From: Capsulimonas corticalis
Lineage (GTDB): Bacteria > Armatimonadota > Armatimonadia > Armatimonadales > Capsulimonadaceae
NCBI RefSeq assembly: GCF_003574315.2
Contig: NZ_AP025739.1
Location: 6,014,001-6,078,000, forward strand
Direction of reading: 5' to 3'
Length of the DNA stretch: 64,000 bases
The notes beneath the pieces are model-generated. The model was not told where the DNA came from and searched no databases. It worked only from the letters and a program-made list of their open reading frames with translations. Positions 17,123-24,324 of this stretch are shown one piece after another. The position numbers and the translations under genes were made by a program. How positions within the stretch are numbered: the first letter of the stretch is position 1; each line of letters opens with the position of its first letter.

Positions 17123-17253
17123 TACTCTGCTCCTTCGGCCTATGACCGTTATGAAGAAAGCGCTCTTCCATAAGCGCAAGTGCTGGTTTCTTATACCACT
17201 GGCTCCCAGAAACGAAACGCCCGCCTCCTGAGCGGCAAATTCCCCGTGACAAA

Positions 17254-17290
17254 AGACGCCCTCCGTTCCCAATGGGAACGGAGGGCGTCT
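17254..17290 (-). terminator. Rho-independent terminator downstream of the tRNA-like gene
   Basis: Perfect 17-bp stem (17254-17270 with 17274-17290), 3-nt loop, followed on the minus strand by TTTTGTC. It lies 22 nt past the 3' end of the tRNA-like gene at 17313-17384, which is the only minus-strand gene it can terminate. Confidence 0.8.
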
Positions 17291-17312: not shown

Positions 17313-17384
17313 AGGCGGCGGGCCGACTCGAACGACCATCTCTCCAATTGCCGTGGAGCGTTTTTCCTTTAAACCAACACCGCC
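17313..17384 (-). tRNA. tRNA-like gene, anticodon position GCA, atypical
   Basis: Folds as a cloverleaf of 72 nt. Acceptor GGCGGTG/CGCCGCC (one G-U), D arm with G18G19 but one stem mismatch (10-25 region), perfect 5-bp anticodon stem CTCCA/TGGAG, variable loop AGAT, T arm GGTCG-TTCGAGT-CGGCC, discriminator U73, no encoded CCA. The anticodon position reads GCA (Cys), and U73 is a Cys/Gly-type discriminator. Position 33, almost always U, is G here, and position 14 is U instead of A. It is therefore either a degenerate tRNA-Cys or a tRNA mimic. It is divergent from the repeat/MoxR/vWA operon and has its own terminator. Confidence 0.6.
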
Positions 17385-17470: not shown

Positions 17471-19024
17471 ATGATGTCCGAACGCTCCGAACTCCAAGAG
17501 GCCCAAGACCCACAAACGCCGGCTCATCGACTGCGAGAGCTCGCCGCCAAGCAAAGGAGTTCGGCCGTCGCCAGGGCCGTCGCCGAGAACCCAAACTCAC
17601 CGCCGGATCTCCTCGCGGCGCTGTGCCATCGTATCCCCGAAGCCGTTCTCAACAACCCGGCGCTGCCGCTCGTCCTCCTGGAAAACCCCGCATGGACGAA
17701 GAGACTGGCTCCCGAGGCCGCGCTGCAGATGCTGAAATTTGAGACAGCGCCCGCCGATTTATTGCATATGCTCGCCAGGCAGCCAGGATTGGTCGGACAC
17801 ACAGCGCGCCTGCATGTCGGGATCGCCGGCGAATGCGGCCCGAATTGGGAATCGGAAGCGCGCGAGGCGCTTTGGGAATCTTCGGGGCTGCCGGGTCGCG
17901 ATGGAAATTTCCCCGTTCGGCTGCTGGAGCTGGACCTCGTCGCCGGCTGGCTCGCCGAGCCACTGGCCGCGCATTGGGACAGCAAAGTGCGGCGCGCGAC
18001 CGCGCGAAGCCCCCATACGCCAAGGGAAGTTCTGCAGCCGCTGCGGCGGGCGGGAGGATCGCACGACTTAAACAGCGTGGTTCCGGCGGACCCCGCCATG
18101 CCGTCCCCAGCACTCGAACGCCTTGCGCGCGGTGGTTCCTGGGCAAAACGTCTGGCGGCCCGGCACCCCAATACGCCGATCGCCGTCCTGGAAAAGCTGG
18201 CAAGCGAAGATAATGAAGCCATTCGATGGAGTCTGGTGAAGAATCCTTCGACACCGACGCACTTAATCGCCGGCCTGACCACGAAACTTGGAGACAACTT
18301 TCGCCGGGGGTGCGCCCGCGATCCCGAGACGCCGCCGGCCTCTCTGGAGATTTTCGCCTCAGACGCCGTGCGGGACGTACGGTGGATGGCGGCGCGTAAC
18401 CCCCATACGCCACCCTCCGCGCTTTCGGCGCTGACGCGCGACGTGGACGCGCGGGTTCGGCAAGGCGTGGGCCGGAATGCCTCGGCTTCCGCCGAACTGC
18501 TCGCCCTTCTCGCAGGAGACTCCGGACGATGGGTGCGCCTGGCCGCGGCGCGCCACCGAAACACCCCGGCGGACGCCCTGGCGGCTCTGGCCGCGGATGA
18601 AGACGAGGAAGTTCGCCAGTCCGTGGCCCGCCGCGATCTTCCGCCGGCGCATCCACCAACGCCGTCGATGAAGAAGGCGCCGCCGGCCTTGTTGTCCAAT
18701 GCGCCCCGGGCGAAGCCGGCTCGGACTGCGGCGCATCCTGTGGAGGTTACTCAGTTACTGCATTCAGCTTGGTCGCGCGGGGAGTGGCTGGAAAAAGCCG
18801 TCGCCCTATCCTGTCCGAATGTGGATCCGAAAGATATCCTCGAAGGCGCGATTGATCCACTCTGGACCTGCCGCATCGCCGTGGCGCGCAACCCGGCGTT
18901 GCTGTTATTTGCGCTGGAACGACCCGAACTGTCGGATCTCGCGCATCGTCTCGCGCGCGACGGCAACCGTCTGGTCCGCGCGGCGGCGCGGGCGTCTCTT
19001 GAGGAGCAACACATTCCATTATGA
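17471..19024 (+). CDS. Leucine-rich-repeat-variant (LRV/HEAT-like) repeat protein
   Basis: 517 aa, first gene of a three-gene operon. It is built from about ten degenerate 22-25-residue helical repeats with the signature (R/K)NPxTPxxxLxxLAxDxxxxVRxxVA, for example HPNTPIAVLEKLASEDNEAIRWSLVKNPSTP and NPHTPPSALSALTRDVDARVRQGVGRN. Such repeats form a curved solenoid used for protein or nucleic-acid binding. There is no catalytic motif, signal peptide or cysteine cluster. A linker with many Ala/Pro (about residues 395-425) separates a C-terminal repeat block. It overlaps the ATPase gene by ATGA. I infer it is the recognition or scaffold subunit for the MoxR/vWA pair. Confidence 0.75.
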   Translation: MMSERSELQEAQDPQTPAHRLRELAAKQRSSAVARAVAENPNSPPDLLAALCHRIPEAVLNNPALPLVLLENPAWTKRLAPEAALQMLKFETAPADLLHMLARQPGLVGHTARLHVGIAGECGPNWESEAREALWESSGLPGRDGNFPVRLLELDLVAGWLAEPLAAHWDSKVRRATARSPHTPREVLQPLRRAGGSHDLNSVVPADPAMPSPALERLARGGSWAKRLAARHPNTPIAVLEKLASEDNEAIRWSLVKNPSTPTHLIAGLTTKLGDNFRRGCARDPETPPASLEIFASDAVRDVRWMAARNPHTPPSALSALTRDVDARVRQGVGRNASASAELLALLAGDSGRWVRLAAARHRNTPADALAALAADEDEEVRQSVARRDLPPAHPPTPSMKKAPPALLSNAPRAKPARTAAHPVEVTQLLHSAWSRGEWLEKAVALSCPNVDPKDILEGAIDPLWTCRIAVARNPALLLFALERPELSDLAHRLARDGNRLVRAAARASLEEQHIPL

Positions 19025-20022
19025 CCCCGGTGGAACTGACCGAATATTTACAAAGCCTCATCTCCCACCGAATTCTGATCAGCGCCATGCTCTGGGGACC
19101 GCCCGGCGTGGGAAAAAGCAGCATTGTCGCCCAGACGGCGCGGCGCAACGGACTGGACTTCGTCGATGTGCGCCTGTCGCAGCTCGCGCCGACCGACCTG
19201 CGCGGGCTGCCCGTGCCCGAAAACGGCGTATCGCGCTGGTATCCGCCGGAGTTCCTGCCCACCGGCGGAACCGGTATTTTGTTCCTGGACGAACTGAATA
19301 TGGCGCCGCCGGCCCTCCAAGGCATCGCGCAGCAGTTAATTCTTGACCGCCAGGTCGGCTCCTACCGAGTGCCCGAAGGCTGGTACGTGTGGGCGGCCGG
19401 CAACCGCAAAGAAGATCGGGCGGCGGTCTTCGACATGCCGGCGCCGCTGGCGAACCGCTTTCTGCACCTGGAGATCACGCCGGATCTGACAAGTTTTAAA
19501 GCGTATGCCCTGCGCGAGGGAGTCCAAGAGCAGATCATCGCGTTTCTTTCGTTCCGCCCCGCTCTGCTGTACGCATTGTCCCCCAACCAGCCGGCTTGGC
19601 CCTCGCCCCGATCGTGGGTGATGGCGAGCCGCCTGCTCGCGGCAGGTTTGGACATCGCGCCGACGGTCGGGGCCGGCGCGGCGTCCGAATTCGCCGCCTA
19701 TCGGGCGCTGTACGCGGCCCTTCCCGACCTGGAGCCGATTCTGGAGGGACGCGCCGGGGGCGTTTCCTTCCCGGCGGAGCCATCGGTTCGGTACGCAGCG
19801 ACCATTGGCCTCACTGTCCGCGCCGACGAGCCAGAGAAGGCGCTGAACGTCTTCCGCTGGATGGCCGACCAGGCGCCGCCGGAGTGGGTTCAGCTCTTCG
19901 CCGCCGACATGCTGCGACTGATGCGGGAGCGAGGGCAGATGGGCATGCTGGCGCCCTTGATCCTTAAGGAGCCACGCTTGCAGCAATTTCTGCGCGACTA
20001 CCAGGAGCTGCTGCGGCAGTAA
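19021..20022 (+). CDS. MoxR-type AAA+ ATPase
   Basis: 333 aa. Walker A is GPPGVGKS (residues 26-33) and Walker B ILFLDEL (86-92). The sensor region is VWAAGNRKEDRA, with an arginine-finger-like PLANRF and a C-terminal lid. MoxR ATPases act as chaperones that remodel or activate a partner vWA protein, usually encoded next door, as here (vWA gene 4 nt downstream). The start codon overlaps the stop of the repeat gene, so the two are coupled. A cytosolic complex with both neighbours is likely. Confidence 0.9.
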   Translation: MTPVELTEYLQSLISHRILISAMLWGPPGVGKSSIVAQTARRNGLDFVDVRLSQLAPTDLRGLPVPENGVSRWYPPEFLPTGGTGILFLDELNMAPPALQGIAQQLILDRQVGSYRVPEGWYVWAAGNRKEDRAAVFDMPAPLANRFLHLEITPDLTSFKAYALREGVQEQIIAFLSFRPALLYALSPNQPAWPSPRSWVMASRLLAAGLDIAPTVGAGAASEFAAYRALYAALPDLEPILEGRAGGVSFPAEPSVRYAATIGLTVRADEPEKALNVFRWMADQAPPEWVQLFAADMLRLMRERGQMGMLAPLILKEPRLQQFLRDYQELLRQ

Positions 20023-20026
20023 TTCC

Positions 20027-21139
20027 ATGCCCTTTGAACCAGATCTGGAGCGGCGTCTAAGCGCATCCTTGCTGCGCCTGCGCGCCCAGGCTCCGTTCTT
20101 CGCCACCCTGGCGTTGTTCGCACGGATCCTGCCGACGAACACTTGCCGAACGGCGGCAACGGATGGCCGCGATATCTTCTTTTATCCCGAGTTCCTGCGC
20201 GGCCTGCCGCCCGCCGCGACGGATGGAGTGCTGCTGCACGAAGTCCTGCATGCCGCCTTGCTCCATATTCCGCGCCGGGGCGGCCGGGAGCCGCTGCTAT
20301 GGAACATCGCGGCCGACATTGTGGTGAACGGGATCATCGACGCGCTGCCCGATTTCGCTCTGCCGTCCGACGCAGTCCGCGATCGGCAATTGGAGAAGTT
20401 TAGCGTGGAGGAAGTGTACGATTTGCTGATGCGCGATGGCGCAACGCAATACGCGCAGGGGATGCCGGACCTGCTGGAAGACGGCCCCGTTCCGGGAGGC
20501 GCCGCGCTGGAAGCGTACTGGCGGCTGGCGCGTGAACAAGCCAGCATACTGGCCCAATCCGCCGCTCAAGGAACCGTTCCGGCGGGGCTGGCGCGTGAAC
20601 TGGGCGCGCTGGGGCCGGCCTCGCTGGACTGGCGATCGACCCTCTGGCGTTACCTCGCCCGGACGCCCACGGACTTCGAAGGCTTCGACCGCCGCTTCCT
20701 GGGCCGTGGCCTGTATTTGGAGACATTGGAGGCGGAGACGCTCAAAGCCCACATCGCCATCGATACGAGCGGATCGGTCTCGAACGCCCAGATGGATCAG
20801 TTCGCCGCCGAGGTGAGCGGCATTTTGAGCGCCTATCCGCACATCCAGAGCGACCTCTTCTACGCCGACGCCGCCCTGCATGGCCCCTACCCGCTGTCCG
20901 CCGATACCCCGATGCCTCCGCCGATCGGCGGAGGCGGCACCGACTTCCGCCCCTTCTTCGCCGCCGTTTCCCAGAACTCATCCCCATTCGCCGACGCCGT
21001 CTGCGTATACCTCACCGACGGCATGGGCGTCTTCCCGAGCCCCCCGCCGACTCTGCCAGTTCTGTGGGTCGTGACGCCAGGCGGCATCGCCCTCTCGGCG
21101 TTCCCGTTCGGCGAAGCCGTTCGCCTGCTGTCGTCTTAA
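20027..21139 (+). CDS. vWA-like protein with putative metallopeptidase domain (DUF2201/COG3864 type)
   Basis: 370 aa. The N-terminal domain has HEVLHAALLH (His71, Glu72, His75, His80), a zinc-metallopeptidase HExxH with a further His. The C-terminal von Willebrand A domain has the MIDAS residues DTSGSVS (Asp246), GGGGTDF and YLTDGMG. This two-domain layout beside a MoxR ATPase is a recurring pairing; the substrate is unknown. The 3' end is of special interest: the last 13 codons plus the downstream tRNA-like gene are duplicated at 22812-22973. A tRNA-like gene on the other strand ends 7 nt from this stop. Confidence 0.85.
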   Translation: MPFEPDLERRLSASLLRLRAQAPFFATLALFARILPTNTCRTAATDGRDIFFYPEFLRGLPPAATDGVLLHEVLHAALLHIPRRGGREPLLWNIAADIVVNGIIDALPDFALPSDAVRDRQLEKFSVEEVYDLLMRDGATQYAQGMPDLLEDGPVPGGAALEAYWRLAREQASILAQSAAQGTVPAGLARELGALGPASLDWRSTLWRYLARTPTDFEGFDRRFLGRGLYLETLEAETLKAHIAIDTSGSVSNAQMDQFAAEVSGILSAYPHIQSDLFYADAALHGPYPLSADTPMPPPIGGGGTDFRPFFAAVSQNSSPFADAVCVYLTDGMGVFPSPPPTLPVLWVVTPGGIALSAFPFGEAVRLLSS

Positions 21140-21259
21140 ACCGTGAGAAGCGGGCGGGACTTGAACCCGCATCTTTGCCTTGCAAAAGCAATGCTCTTCC
21201 TTTAAGCCACCGCTTCTCCCCCACAGTTTCCACAGGCCGCCTGCTTTTCCCTGCGAGTT
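21098..21259. repeat. Direct repeat copy A: vWA 3' end, tRNA-like gene and its 5' flank
   Basis: 162 bp collinear, without gaps, with 22812-22973. The last 117 bp of each copy agree at 108 positions by eye. Five of the nine differences are in or next to the anticodon arm. The first 42 bp are the last 13 codons and stop of the vWA gene. Confidence 0.85.
21146..21216 (-). tRNA. tRNA-like gene, anticodon position TGC, atypical
   Basis: 71-nt cloverleaf. Acceptor GAAGCGG/CCGCTTC, D arm GCTT-AAAGGAA-GAGC, anticodon stem TTGCT/GGCAA with loop TTTGCAA (anticodon UGC, Ala; U33 present), variable loop AGAT, T arm GCGGG-TTCAAGT-CCCGC, discriminator U73, no CCA. It lacks the G3-U70 pair that AlaRS needs (A3-U70 instead) and has U73 instead of A73, so charging with alanine is doubtful. 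The flanking GA and TC extend the acceptor helix to 9 bp, pairing position 73, which is odd for a tRNA. Its T arm and variable loop resemble bacterial tRNA-Gly(UCC). Confidence 0.65.
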
Positions 21260-21298: not shown

Positions 21299-22222
21299 TT
21301 AAAATAGCGCCCCATGACATCCTGGGCACAATACGATCTGATCGTCCAAATACAGCGCCCTCACCGCGAGACGTTCGCGAACAGACTTCTCGCGCCCCAC
21401 GACTTTGAACGAGTGATTCTTTAAATACTCCAAGATCAACATGTCTGTCGCGTTGAGCGCACCGAGCGGCGCCTGCTGAATGAAGCCGTCGATCACATCG
21501 CGCCGTTTGAAAAGCGATGGATTCTGTTCCAGTTGGGGATGACGCTCGTAAAAGTCTTTCACCAAATGGAGAGTGCGCAATTCCGCCTCGAAACGTCGAT
21601 AGTATAAGTAATGCTCAATACGCAGCCGGTCCTCCTCGGAAAAAATATCAATCGAAGATATTCGATGACATTGCGCGCAAACAGCCGAAGCGAAGCCAAA
21701 CGACCTTTGCTGCGACCAAGTGGCGGCAGGTGAATATGTGAAGCCGCATACAAGGCACTCTGTGTCCTCTTCAGGGAAAGGATGTTTCCATCTATCGATG
21801 GGGGTTCTCGCCTTGCATCGAGGGCAGTGGCAATGAATTGTATAAGAACCGAAATCGACGTGTCCAGGTGGACGCAGCTTGACAAACAAATCAAGATCTG
21901 CCTTAATGCTGAGATTGAGAGCAGCCTGAAATCCGCGTACTCCATAGTCATATTCGCAAGGCAATGCGGAGAGATCCGCAGCAATCCAGAAGATGAGTTC
22001 CGCTTGCTCTCGACTGAGTGGCGATTCCATAAACCAGCCATAATAAATGGGGTCAGTTTTTGGGAACGCCGCTTTGAACCGCTCCATCAAACCAAGCCGA
22101 GCAATCTGGTCTTCAAGCCTTTCCTCAGATTTCGCCTCAAAGAGACTGCACCATCCCGAGAGAGCTGTTTTCAATCCTGGCACGTTCAACTCCCAATTGA
22201 TACTCTGGCGTGTTTCACTCAT
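21299..22222 (-). CDS. Uncharacterised protein with four Cys-pair metal sites
   Basis: 307 aa from ATG 22222 (an in-frame TTG at 22234 lies closer to GAGGAG). I do not recognise the family. The middle has CHCPRCKAR...CLVCGF and then CAQCHR, and the protein ends with CPGC, so one or two structural zinc sites are likely. The rest is mixed helical and aromatic-rich. Base composition is visibly more AT-rich than the neighbours. The gene lies between the two copies of the tRNA-like repeat, so acquisition after the duplication, or insertion between repeat copies, is plausible. It is divergent from the DUF1877 gene. Confidence 0.6.
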   Translation of the reverse strand: MSETRQSINWELNVPGLKTALSGWCSLFEAKSEERLEDQIARLGLMERFKAAFPKTDPIYYGWFMESPLSREQAELIFWIAADLSALPCEYDYGVRGFQAALNLSIKADLDLFVKLRPPGHVDFGSYTIHCHCPRCKARTPIDRWKHPFPEEDTECLVCGFTYSPAATWSQQRSFGFASAVCAQCHRISSIDIFSEEDRLRIEHYLYYRRFEAELRTLHLVKDFYERHPQLEQNPSLFKRRDVIDGFIQQAPLGALNATDMLILEYLKNHSFKVVGREKSVRERLAVRALYLDDQIVLCPGCHGALF

Positions 22223-22272
22223 TGTCCCGATCAATTCTCCTCAAGATTTTCGTTCACCGACGCCATGCCTGC

Positions 22273-22319: not shown

Positions 22320-22802
22320 ATGAGTATGATGTACCATCTCGTCCAAATCGACGAGGACGCATTGGAGACGCTGCTCCAGCAGCCGAAGCAGATCCGCTCC
22401 ATTATCGACAAGGGCGGTCCGTCGACAACGACGCTGGACAAAGCATGGCAGGGATTGCACTTTCTGCTGACAGGGACCGCTTGGGAGGGTAATCTGCCAA
22501 GCGCTTATTTGTTGGAGGGAGGGGCGCCTGTCGGTAAGGTCAATGTTGGATTCGGGCCAGCCCGCGCGATGCGTCCCTCGGACGTGCGCGCGTTCGACAA
22601 TCATCTTTTGATGGTCTCCCCGGAGACATTGGCGGAGCGACTGGATCTGGCCAAGATGGTGGCCCTCGATATCTATCCGTTTCACGCGCAGGACTCGCAC
22701 GAGGACACCCTGCGATACCTGCAAAGCTACTTCGAAGACCTTCGCAAATGCGTTCATGACGCAGCCGCCAACGGACGCGGGCTAATCACGTATATCGCTT
22801 GA
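22320..22802 (+). CDS. DUF1877 (YfbM-like) family protein
   Basis: 160 aa cytosolic protein. It resembles DUF1877 in the opening YHLVQIDEDALETLLQ, the central LDKAWQGLHFLLTGT, the glycine-rich middle, and the terminal segment that places helices around YLQSYFEDLRKCVHDAAANGRGLITYI. The family has no established function and is often found next to toxin-immunity or accessory genes. Its stop (22800-22802) is only 9 nt before the vWA 3'-end remnant, so the gene appears to have replaced the rest of a duplicated vWA gene. Confidence 0.75.
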   Translation: MSMMYHLVQIDEDALETLLQQPKQIRSIIDKGGPSTTTLDKAWQGLHFLLTGTAWEGNLPSAYLLEGGAPVGKVNVGFGPARAMRPSDVRAFDNHLLMVSPETLAERLDLAKMVALDIYPFHAQDSHEDTLRYLQSYFEDLRKCVHDAAANGRGLITYIA

Positions 22803-22811
22803 TTGCGCCCG

Positions 22812-22853
22812 GCGTTCCCGTTCGGCAACGCGGCGATGCTGTTGCGCGCCTAA
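22812..22853 (+). pseudogene. Remnant of the 3' end of a second vWA gene (13 codons and stop)
   Basis: The 42 bp translate as AFPFGNAAMLLRA-stop, aligned without gaps to the vWA ending AFPFGEAVRLLSS-stop (21098-21139). The first 15 bases are identical. The distance from the stop to the following tRNA-like repeat is the same 3 nt in both places. There is no start or body upstream; the DUF1877 gene occupies that space. I infer an ancestral duplicate of the vWA-tRNA-like unit that lost its 5' part. Confidence 0.75.
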
Positions 22854-22859
22854 AAGGTG

Positions 22860-22930
22860 AGAAGCGGGCGGGAGTTGAACCCGCATCTTTGCCGTGAAAG
22901 GGCAACGCTCTTCCTTTGAGCCACCGCTTC
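22860..22930 (-). tRNA. tRNA-like gene, anticodon position TTC, atypical
   Basis: 71-nt cloverleaf with the same body as the copy at 21146-21216: acceptor GAAGCGG/CCGCTTC, D arm GCTC-AAAGGAA-GAGC, variable loop AGAT, T arm GCGGG-TTCAACT-CCCGC, U73, no CCA. The anticodon stem is TTGCC/GGCAA and the loop CTTTCAC, the typical tRNA-Glu loop (anticodon UUC). The acceptor helix can again extend by two pairs. A shared body with a Glu-type loop in one copy and an Ala-type loop in the other is not expected of ordinary tRNA genes. Confidence 0.65.
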
Positions 22931-23081
22931 TCCCCCACAGTTTCCACAGGCCGCTTGCTTTTCCCTGCGAATTATTTGAGAATGAATCGGCCGCAAAATC
23001 TTCAATAATTACACTGAGGAGAACAGAAGAGAGAGTAACGGAATGGGAGTAACCCGAAATACAACACCATGTGGAAATGGA

Positions 23082-23439: not shown

Positions 23440-24324
23440 TTATTCCACTTGACTGATCTGATGCCAAAGCGGCAGTAACGGAATGCGGCTGACGCTGGAG
23501 AATTGGGCGTCGCCGCTTTCGATGACGATCCATTGGCCGTCTTCGAGTTGTCCGATATCGATGGCGACATATGGCGTGTCCAGTCGACGGGCGGCTTGCA
23601 CGGCCAGCGCTAACACCGCTTTGTTCTCTTCCACACTCAGCGCGCTCAGCGGATCATCGCCTTCCCAGTAGTATCCGTACCCAAGGATCTCAGAGCGATA
23701 GAGAAAGACACGATACTCGCGGCCGATGGGAAACCCCTGCGCTGTCTTGTTGACATGACGAATGGAGACTAGCTTTCGAAGGACGACACGGCCGCGCGTT
23801 CGGCCTTCCAAACTGAGGTATTGCGATGTCAGCAGCCGCACTTCGTCGGCGGTCTCCGCCACGCACGCCTTCCAGCCGCGCGCTTTGCGCGACTGTACCG
23901 CTCCCTTGACGAACACCGGCAATCCCAGCGTCTTGATAGCGTCATCGCACTGATCGGGATCGGTCACGATGATCGACTTCGGCGTCAATCCCGCGAGCCG
24001 CTCGTAAGCCCGGTCGAACTCCTGCGCGCGCAGATGCTCCTCCGGGGTGTTCAGCAGACGGATCCGTTTCTCCAGCGCCAATCGGTAAACGGCGTCGTAA
24101 TGCTCCGGCGTCGGGATATACCCGTTCCAAACGCCCGGCGTCTCCCCCTCCTGTACGGGAATGTGCGCGAACGCATCCGAAGGACTTTCCAATCCCTCGA
24201 AACCCTGCGGGATATAGTAAACCCGGCATCCCGTTAGTTTTGCCGCCTCCGTCGCGGCCTGGAGCTCACGAGAACTGGGCGTCGGCTCCAGATAGCTGGA
24301 GGCTTCACTGAGTACGATCATCAT
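23440..24324 (-). CDS. ATP-grasp domain protein
   Basis: 294 aa. An N-terminal Rossmann-like part (MMIVLSEASSY) precedes an ATP-grasp fold: SIIVTDPDQC, GLPVFVKGAVQSRKARGWKAC (the nucleotide-binding Lys), the LRKLVSIRHV strand, GREYRVFLYRSEILGYGYYWEG, and the metal-binding end YVAIDIGQLEDGQWIVIESGDAQFS. Such stand-alone enzymes ligate a carboxylate to an amine; the substrate cannot be inferred. Resembles the DUF4343-type ATP-grasp group. It starts with ATGATG and lies 39 nt from the SPFH gene on the same strand. Confidence 0.8.
   Translation of the reverse strand: MMIVLSEASSYLEPTPSSRELQAATEAAKLTGCRVYYIPQGFEGLESPSDAFAHIPVQEGETPGVWNGYIPTPEHYDAVYRLALEKRIRLLNTPEEHLRAQEFDRAYERLAGLTPKSIIVTDPDQCDDAIKTLGLPVFVKGAVQSRKARGWKACVAETADEVRLLTSQYLSLEGRTRGRVVLRKLVSIRHVNKTAQGFPIGREYRVFLYRSEILGYGYYWEGDDPLSALSVEENKAVLALAVQAARRLDTPYVAIDIGQLEDGQWIVIESGDAQFSSVSRIPLLPLWHQISQVE

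Follow-up and report, generated by a model that had tools for sequence, protein, structure and literature searches.

A family of tRNA-like RNAs with variable anticodon arms, probably non-decoding, is linked to SDR, LRR, and MoxR genes in Capsulimonas corticalis and other bacteria

The window analyzed here, a stretch of 64,000 nucleotides from the single 7.65 Mb contig of the C. corticalis genome, contains three tRNA-like genes that surround an operon encoding LRV, MoxR (AAA_5), and DUF2201 proteins. tRNA-like RNA 1 lies on the minus strand (17313-17384, read 17384→17313), where ARAGORN calls a 72-nt tRNA-Cys with a GCA anticodon. Divergent from it, on the plus strand, are the genes for the LRV-repeat protein (17474-19024), a MoxR-type AAA_5 ATPase (19021-20022), and a DUF2201 putative metallopeptidase with a vWA-like domain (20027-21139). 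tRNA-like RNA 2 (21145-21218, minus strand; 21145-21216 in the ARAGORN call) is a nominal tRNA-Ala with a UGC anticodon, a 9-bp acceptor (GAGAAGCGG/CCGCTTCTC), and no CCA, and is convergent with the DUF2201 gene, ending 5 nt from its stop codon. tRNA-like RNA 3 (22859-22932, minus strand; 22859-22930 in the ARAGORN call), a nominal tRNA-Glu with a UUC anticodon, likewise has a 9-bp acceptor and no CCA. It also ends 5 nt from a DUF2201 stop codon, here in a remnant of the DUF2201 C-terminus (LRPAFPFGNAAMLLRA*, 22803-22853, plus strand), so the gene end and the tRNA-like were duplicated together. The two copies have a 40-nt 5' flank in common (21219-21258 and 22933-22972, both minus strand). Between the duplicated segments lie a gene for a 311-aa protein without a family match (21299-22234, minus strand) and a DUF1877 gene (22320-22802, plus strand), and an R2K ATP-grasp gene is found further on (23440-24324).

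Read 5' to 3', tRNA-like 1 consists of a 7-bp acceptor stem (GGCGGUG/CGCCGCC, with one U-G pair), a 3-nt linker (UUG), a D stem (GUUU/AAAC) with the loop AAAGGAA, a single G, an anticodon stem (CUCCA/UGGAG) with the loop CGGCAAU, a 4-nt variable loop (AGAU), a T stem (GGUCG/CGGCC) with the loop UUCGAGU, and U73. The initial annotation described a good cloverleaf with perfect anticodon and T stems; direct reading confirms the perfect anticodon stem, G18G19, and U73, but the T stem carries one U-G pair. The D-stem mismatch and U14 also described there are artifacts of a one-base shift in register. In the GTTT/AAAC register (gene letters) the D stem is perfect, the D loop provides A14, A15, G18G19, and A21, an A15-U48 pair can form, and the cloverleaf energy is 4 kcal/mol better, at -24.4 as opposed to -20.2 kcal/mol. 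The ARAGORN call bears out the annotated GCA anticodon, and direct reading the G at position 33 (window base 17352), so the U33 of an elongator tRNA-Cys is absent. Since a whole-locus DNA search in relatives found no homologous locus, base 33 is read from one sequence and may reflect a sequencing error. CCA is not encoded; AATCC follows the gene, and CCA could still be added afterwards. A 16-bp hairpin (17255-17290, -33.9 kcal/mol) followed by TTTT lies 22 nt downstream, as annotated, and is the likely private terminator (17250-17290, minus strand), while a simple scan recognized no sigma-70-like promoter for this gene. Judging from sequence, tRNA-like 1 and its relatives are probably expressed.

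Single-sequence folding of tRNA-like 1 is not significant (z -1.0), and its minimum free energy fold is slightly unlike the cloverleaf. The Rfam tRNA model (RF00005, threshold 29 bits) leaves it unreported even at E 5, and all other Rfam families run on the locus gave nothing credible for it. Given this unexceptional fold and the miss by the Rfam tRNA model, the case for tRNA-like 1 is made by comparison. tRNA-likes 2 and 3 pass the same model with 68 and 69.9 bits and share with tRNA-like 1 the AAAGGAA D loop, the AGAT variable loop, and U73, which agrees with the earlier proposal of one family. Together with a fourth copy at 7346109, which is separated by 14 nt from a downstream SDR gene and the LRR gene after it, they make up the own-genome members, four tRNA calls that share a D loop of the form AA[A/C]GGAA, the variable loop AGAT, U73, and the lack of CCA. 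The acceptor is 9 bp long in copies 2 and 3, and 7 bp in copy 1 and the fourth copy. The genome also encodes an ordinary tRNA-Cys(GCA) at 364273, with U33 and an encoded CCA; tRNA-like 1 is thus not the only tRNA-Cys and is unneeded for decoding, in keeping with the earlier view that it is not a normal decoder.

Other odd tRNA genes occur elsewhere in this genome. About 20 extra tRNA genes over about 9 kb (1204505-1213169, L040) look like a foreign tRNA array; among them, Leu(UAA) and Leu(UAG) have short variable loops, and a Trp has a long variable loop. A chimeric tRNA-Val(CAC) (6918065-6918140, L066), possibly the trace of a past insertion at a tRNA gene, is identical in its 3' half to the normal tRNA-Val at 7023230 and has an unrelated 5' half. 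Two low-scoring tRNAs adjoin at 6411438-6411665 (L142), a Thr(UGU) whose 3' half is unusual and a nominal Ser(UGA) with a class I body.

To extend the comparison to other genomes, several searches were made. A strict D-loop/variable-loop pattern applied to 291 genomes of the phylum returned the own genome and one match at control level, the pattern being too strict, and a first covariance model with flanks was set aside. A covariance model of the four own copies, run over 81 genomes, gave ordinary tRNAs up to about 60 bits and also arrays of tRNA-likes lacking CCA elsewhere in the phylum. In four genomes (G007, G011, G060, and G017), the tRNA-likes adjoin relatives (44-58% identical) of the SDR gene beside the fourth own copy. 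Furthermore, the tRNA-likes of G007 alternate divergently with LRV genes, as copy 1 does with the LRV gene of the window. An independent model was built from seven RNAs of G060, G007, Variovorax, and Massilia only, with the own genome excluded. It scored copies 2 and 3 at 82 and 77 bits, higher than any ordinary tRNA of the genome (at most 59), and tRNA-like 1 at 47 bits (E 1e-8), within the ordinary tRNA range. As tRNA-like 1 scores like ordinary tRNAs, its membership also rests on the loops that it shares with the other copies, on its lack of CCA, and on where it lies; because of this score and its 7-bp acceptor, it might be a decaying copy. More generally, weak members and ordinary tRNAs overlap in the covariance models and are told apart by SDR adjacency.

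A second search used the SDR proteins alone as queries over GTDB genomes. Among the best 80 loci, a tRNA-like lies upstream of the SDR gene on the same strand in 20, which come from Cyanobacteria, Proteobacteria (Pseudomonadota), Bacteroidota, Actinobacteria (Actinomycetota), SAR324, Desulfobacterales, and Armatimonadota. The same order, with a hairpin between the RNA and the SDR gene, was later met on a Deinococcus plasmid that the protein search brought up. In total, one small set of protein genes recurs next to tRNA-likes in at least eight bacterial lineages. The initial annotation is therefore incomplete, since it covers three copies of what is a much larger family with links to particular protein genes in many phyla. 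The model matches at L167 and L184 proved to be ordinary tRNA-Arg genes and were left out. No tRNA-like was found at the Xanthomonas and Rhodanobacter SDR loci with the first model, or at Nostoc and other SDR loci with both models, and many SDR genes lack one.

The SDR has an N-terminal helical part, a four-cysteine zinc-ribbon-like motif, and a FabG-like fold, for which Foldseek returned generic FabG-type SDRs only. tRNA-like-bearing SDRs, many of them on long branches, cluster on the SDR tree, though in a patchy pattern, with 6 changes compared to 18.4 for shuffled labels. An LRR gene of the ribonuclease-inhibitor (RI) type, closest to ribonuclease-inhibitor and NLR repeats, follows the SDR gene in 18 of the 20 loci with a tRNA-like and in one of the other 60. 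On independent pairs of the SDR tree, this association amounts to 3 against 0-1, which is not significant, the few independent contrasts leaving the comparison underpowered. Actinobacterial loci run in the order tRNA-like, SDR, LRR, ankyrin, MoxR, vWA, with ankyrin proteins between LRR and MoxR. The MoxR, which follows in eight of them, is 33-38% identical to the window MoxR over the aligned part, and a recognizable DUF2201 (25-27% identical) is present in six of those eight. As these loci join SDR–LRR with MoxR/DUF2201, the window operon and the separate SDR–LRR locus of the genome look like two halves of one system.

This linkage has limits on the side of the operon. Several MoxR-DUF2201 operons lack a tRNA-like (G007, C4; G017, C364); in G007, an operon of LRV paralogues, MoxR, and DUF2201 stands at a third place without tRNA-likes. 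Other DUF2201 genes in relatives had no neighboring tRNA-like, so DUF2201 by itself does not account for the link. Even so, the family and its gene linkage are well supported, and it is highly likely from gene order that the family belongs with SDR, RI-type LRR, LRV or ankyrin, MoxR ATPase, and DUF2201/vWA proteins.

By sequence, the family appears to keep the tRNA body, with G18G19 in the D loop, the T loop, and the tertiary pairs, while mostly lacking an encoded CCA and usually having a 9-bp acceptor. The typical acceptor/T combination is 9/5, giving 14 stacked base pairs, and both extra acceptor pairs are present in 28 of 39 distinct family acceptors compared to 11 of 60 ordinary CCA-tRNAs (p 2e-7). 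Covariation in homologues, suggested earlier as a check, is seen in all four stems of the seven RNAs from other genomes: 96.9% of cells are paired, 13 pairs changed on both sides, and the covariation score is 0.71 compared to 0.32 for shuffles and at most 0.21 for slid structures. The anticodon arm, on the other hand, is 3-4.5 times more variable than the rest (0.35-0.41 differences per site compared to 0.08-0.13 elsewhere, in three sets of relatives), and two copies in Microseira differ almost solely in this arm. With the anticodon arm free-running, neither U33 nor the anticodon is conserved. Position 33 in the 42 seven-base family loops is U in 27, C in 12, G in 2, and A in 1, compared to U33 in 59 of 60 ordinary tRNAs (p 3e-6); G33 is accordingly not peculiar to tRNA-like 1, as position 33 is other than U in 15 of the 42. 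C36 occurs in 26 and A37 in 31 of the 42 loops, so that the anticodons predicted for the family favor Ala, Gly, Glu, Asp, and Val. One 103-nt tRNA-like in G007 (L134:7328-7430) has an extra structured insertion in the anticodon arm, with the acceptor, D, and T arms kept.

The long acceptor, the lack of CCA, the poorly conserved U33, and anticodon arms that can be exchanged appear to speak against decoding, and 17313-17384 is very probably a member of a family of small non-decoding tRNA-like RNAs. Some members end in CC or CCA, so their aminoacylation may occur. For tRNA-like 1 taken singly, the G33, the missing CCA, the miss by the Rfam tRNA model, a fold slightly off the cloverleaf, and the normal tRNA-Cys elsewhere would also suit a pseudogene, an ordinary decayed tRNA-Cys. 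Such an origin is quite unlikely, given that two better-kept adjoining sisters share its D loop, variable loop, and U73, that the body is retained while the anticodon arm varies, and that the stems covary and the same gene neighbors recur in other phyla.

The position of many members, about 15-170 nt upstream of the SDR start, raises the alternative of a cis-acting leader that regulates the downstream SDR gene, or the divergent LRV gene, by a mechanism such as cleavage by RNase P or a repressor that binds tRNA. Although a terminator-like hairpin sometimes stands between tRNA-like and SDR (L144, L257), a leader role is improbable for RNAs that have private terminators and hypervariable anticodon arms, reach nine copies per locus, are in some cases on the strand opposite to their neighbors, and can be away from any SDR gene (the window, L138). 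No more probable is an RNA antitoxin or partner in a toxin-antitoxin-like module. The cyanobacterial and Deinococcus loci share with type III (ToxIN-like) systems the layout of RNA repeats, terminator, and protein gene, and arrays are interleaved with paralogous protein genes at L134 and L135. Here, however, the RNA has a tRNA fold and the protein is an SDR with a FabG-type fold and not a nuclease, and this SDR occurs widely at loci that lack a tRNA-like.

The proximity to SDR genes across many phyla and the CC or CCA ends of some copies could also indicate a substrate or aminoacyl-donor carrier for SDR chemistry. This is slightly less probable again, as most copies lack CCA, one array holds anticodons of many amino acids, and the tyrosine position of the catalytic YxxxK motif is Thr in an invariant HPHTNMAK motif. 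A tRNA-type attachment site with gene cassettes inserted around it is the least probable reading: the 311-aa protein and DUF1877 genes stand between two direct repeats (DUF2201 end, tRNA-like, and 40 nt) that contain copies 2 and 3, and tRNA-likes alternate with paralogous genes at L134 and L135, but the variation lies in the anticodon arm and not the 3' half, and the terminators and covarying acceptors speak for a functional RNA. The alternating genes at L135 (7250-9467, G060) are two paralogues of 315 and 321 aa without a Pfam match, arranged like the LRV paralogues in G007.

In place of these alternatives, a non-decoding tRNA-like might serve as a bait or decoy for anticodon-attacking nucleases, with SDR/LRR/MoxR/vWA proteins as the read-out. 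This suggestion, which is possible but doubtful, is drawn from the constant body and variable arm, the repeated copies, the ribonuclease-inhibitor-type LRR, and the MoxR–vWA partners. The RNA would resemble a tRNA to enzymes that attack the anticodon arm, while its long acceptor and missing CCA would bar it from the ribosome; with a constant body and anticodon arms exchanged among copies, one set of copies could cover several attackers. SDR/LRR or LRV/ankyrin adaptors would sense binding or cleavage of the tRNA-like, and the MoxR ATPase would relay the signal to the vWA/metallopeptidase partner. Protein binding, bait function, and signaling are all steps that we infer. No anticodon nuclease or RNA-repair gene was identified near the tRNA-likes. 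The associated protein genes resemble, by analogy, a cellular alarm or defense system, and a bacterial immunity-like system whose RNA recognition part consists of tRNA mimics with interchangeable anticodon arms that trigger a MoxR-vWA response is somewhat more doubtful than the bait role. As a whole, the combination of non-decoding family member and bait mechanism is the best explanation at hand, held tentatively and at a little short of even.

Since tRNA finders list such RNAs as ordinary tRNA genes with odd anticodons, inventories of tRNA genes are distorted. Should the linkage prove functional, MoxR–vWA systems would gain an RNA component whose loop diversifies, and there would be a concrete and testable candidate for a means by which bacteria could sense or survive anticodon nucleases. 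In addition, natural tRNAs with 14-bp acceptor domains could be probes of how RNAs are excluded from the ribosome.

In the literature that the analysis covered, there was no earlier report of this tRNA-like family. Burroughs and Aravind, in 2016, reportedly described a 'novel tRNA-like molecule' in SPFH/Band-7 RNA-repair systems, which might be the same RNA. In a general scan of neighboring genes, no Ro/TROVE, RtcB, or SPFH was recognized. The allo-tRNAs and irregular tRNA polycistrons resemble the family in their lengthened acceptor, very diverse anticodons, and array arrangement, and some are unusable in translation or have an extra loop between the acceptor and D stem (Mukai et al., 2017; reviewed in PMC7609411). 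However, in allo-tRNAs the acceptor domain is 12 bp (8/4 or 9/3) and the variable arm is long, whereas copies 2 and 3 and most relatives are 9/5, copy 1 is 7/5, and the variable loop of the family is 4-5 nt; the fixed link to SDR/LRR/MoxR/vWA genes is also a feature of the tRNA-like family. Acceptor domains of 13 bp set tRNA-Sec apart from normal tRNAs (PMC7609411).

The bait or decoy idea has a precedent in YrlA, a bacterial Y RNA found with Ro60/Rsr and RtcBA, whose tRNA-like domain has been proposed as a competitive inhibitor of anticodon nuclease (PMC7790460). YrlA resembles the family as a non-decoding tRNA mimic whose gene lies next to an RNA-damage or RNP system, while the full cloverleaf is particular to the family. 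On the protein side, the closest comparison is with the MoxR-vWA ternary (VMAP/bpX) systems, proposed conflict systems of which some have diversified sensors (PMC7159879; PMC10907252). The window operon shares with them adjacent genes for a MoxR AAA ATPase and a vWA protein (19021-21139) and a variable third part, which is LRV in the window and ankyrin in Actinobacteria, as opposed to bpX or VMAP. The MoxR proteins score below the bpMoxR cut-off, PADLOC gave no defense match, NCBIfam gave no equivalog name, and the text of the 2020 paper on these systems contains no tRNA-like RNA, SDR, or ankyrin part. In some of the ternary systems the diversified component is a sensor; in the family described here, the diversified component would be an RNA.
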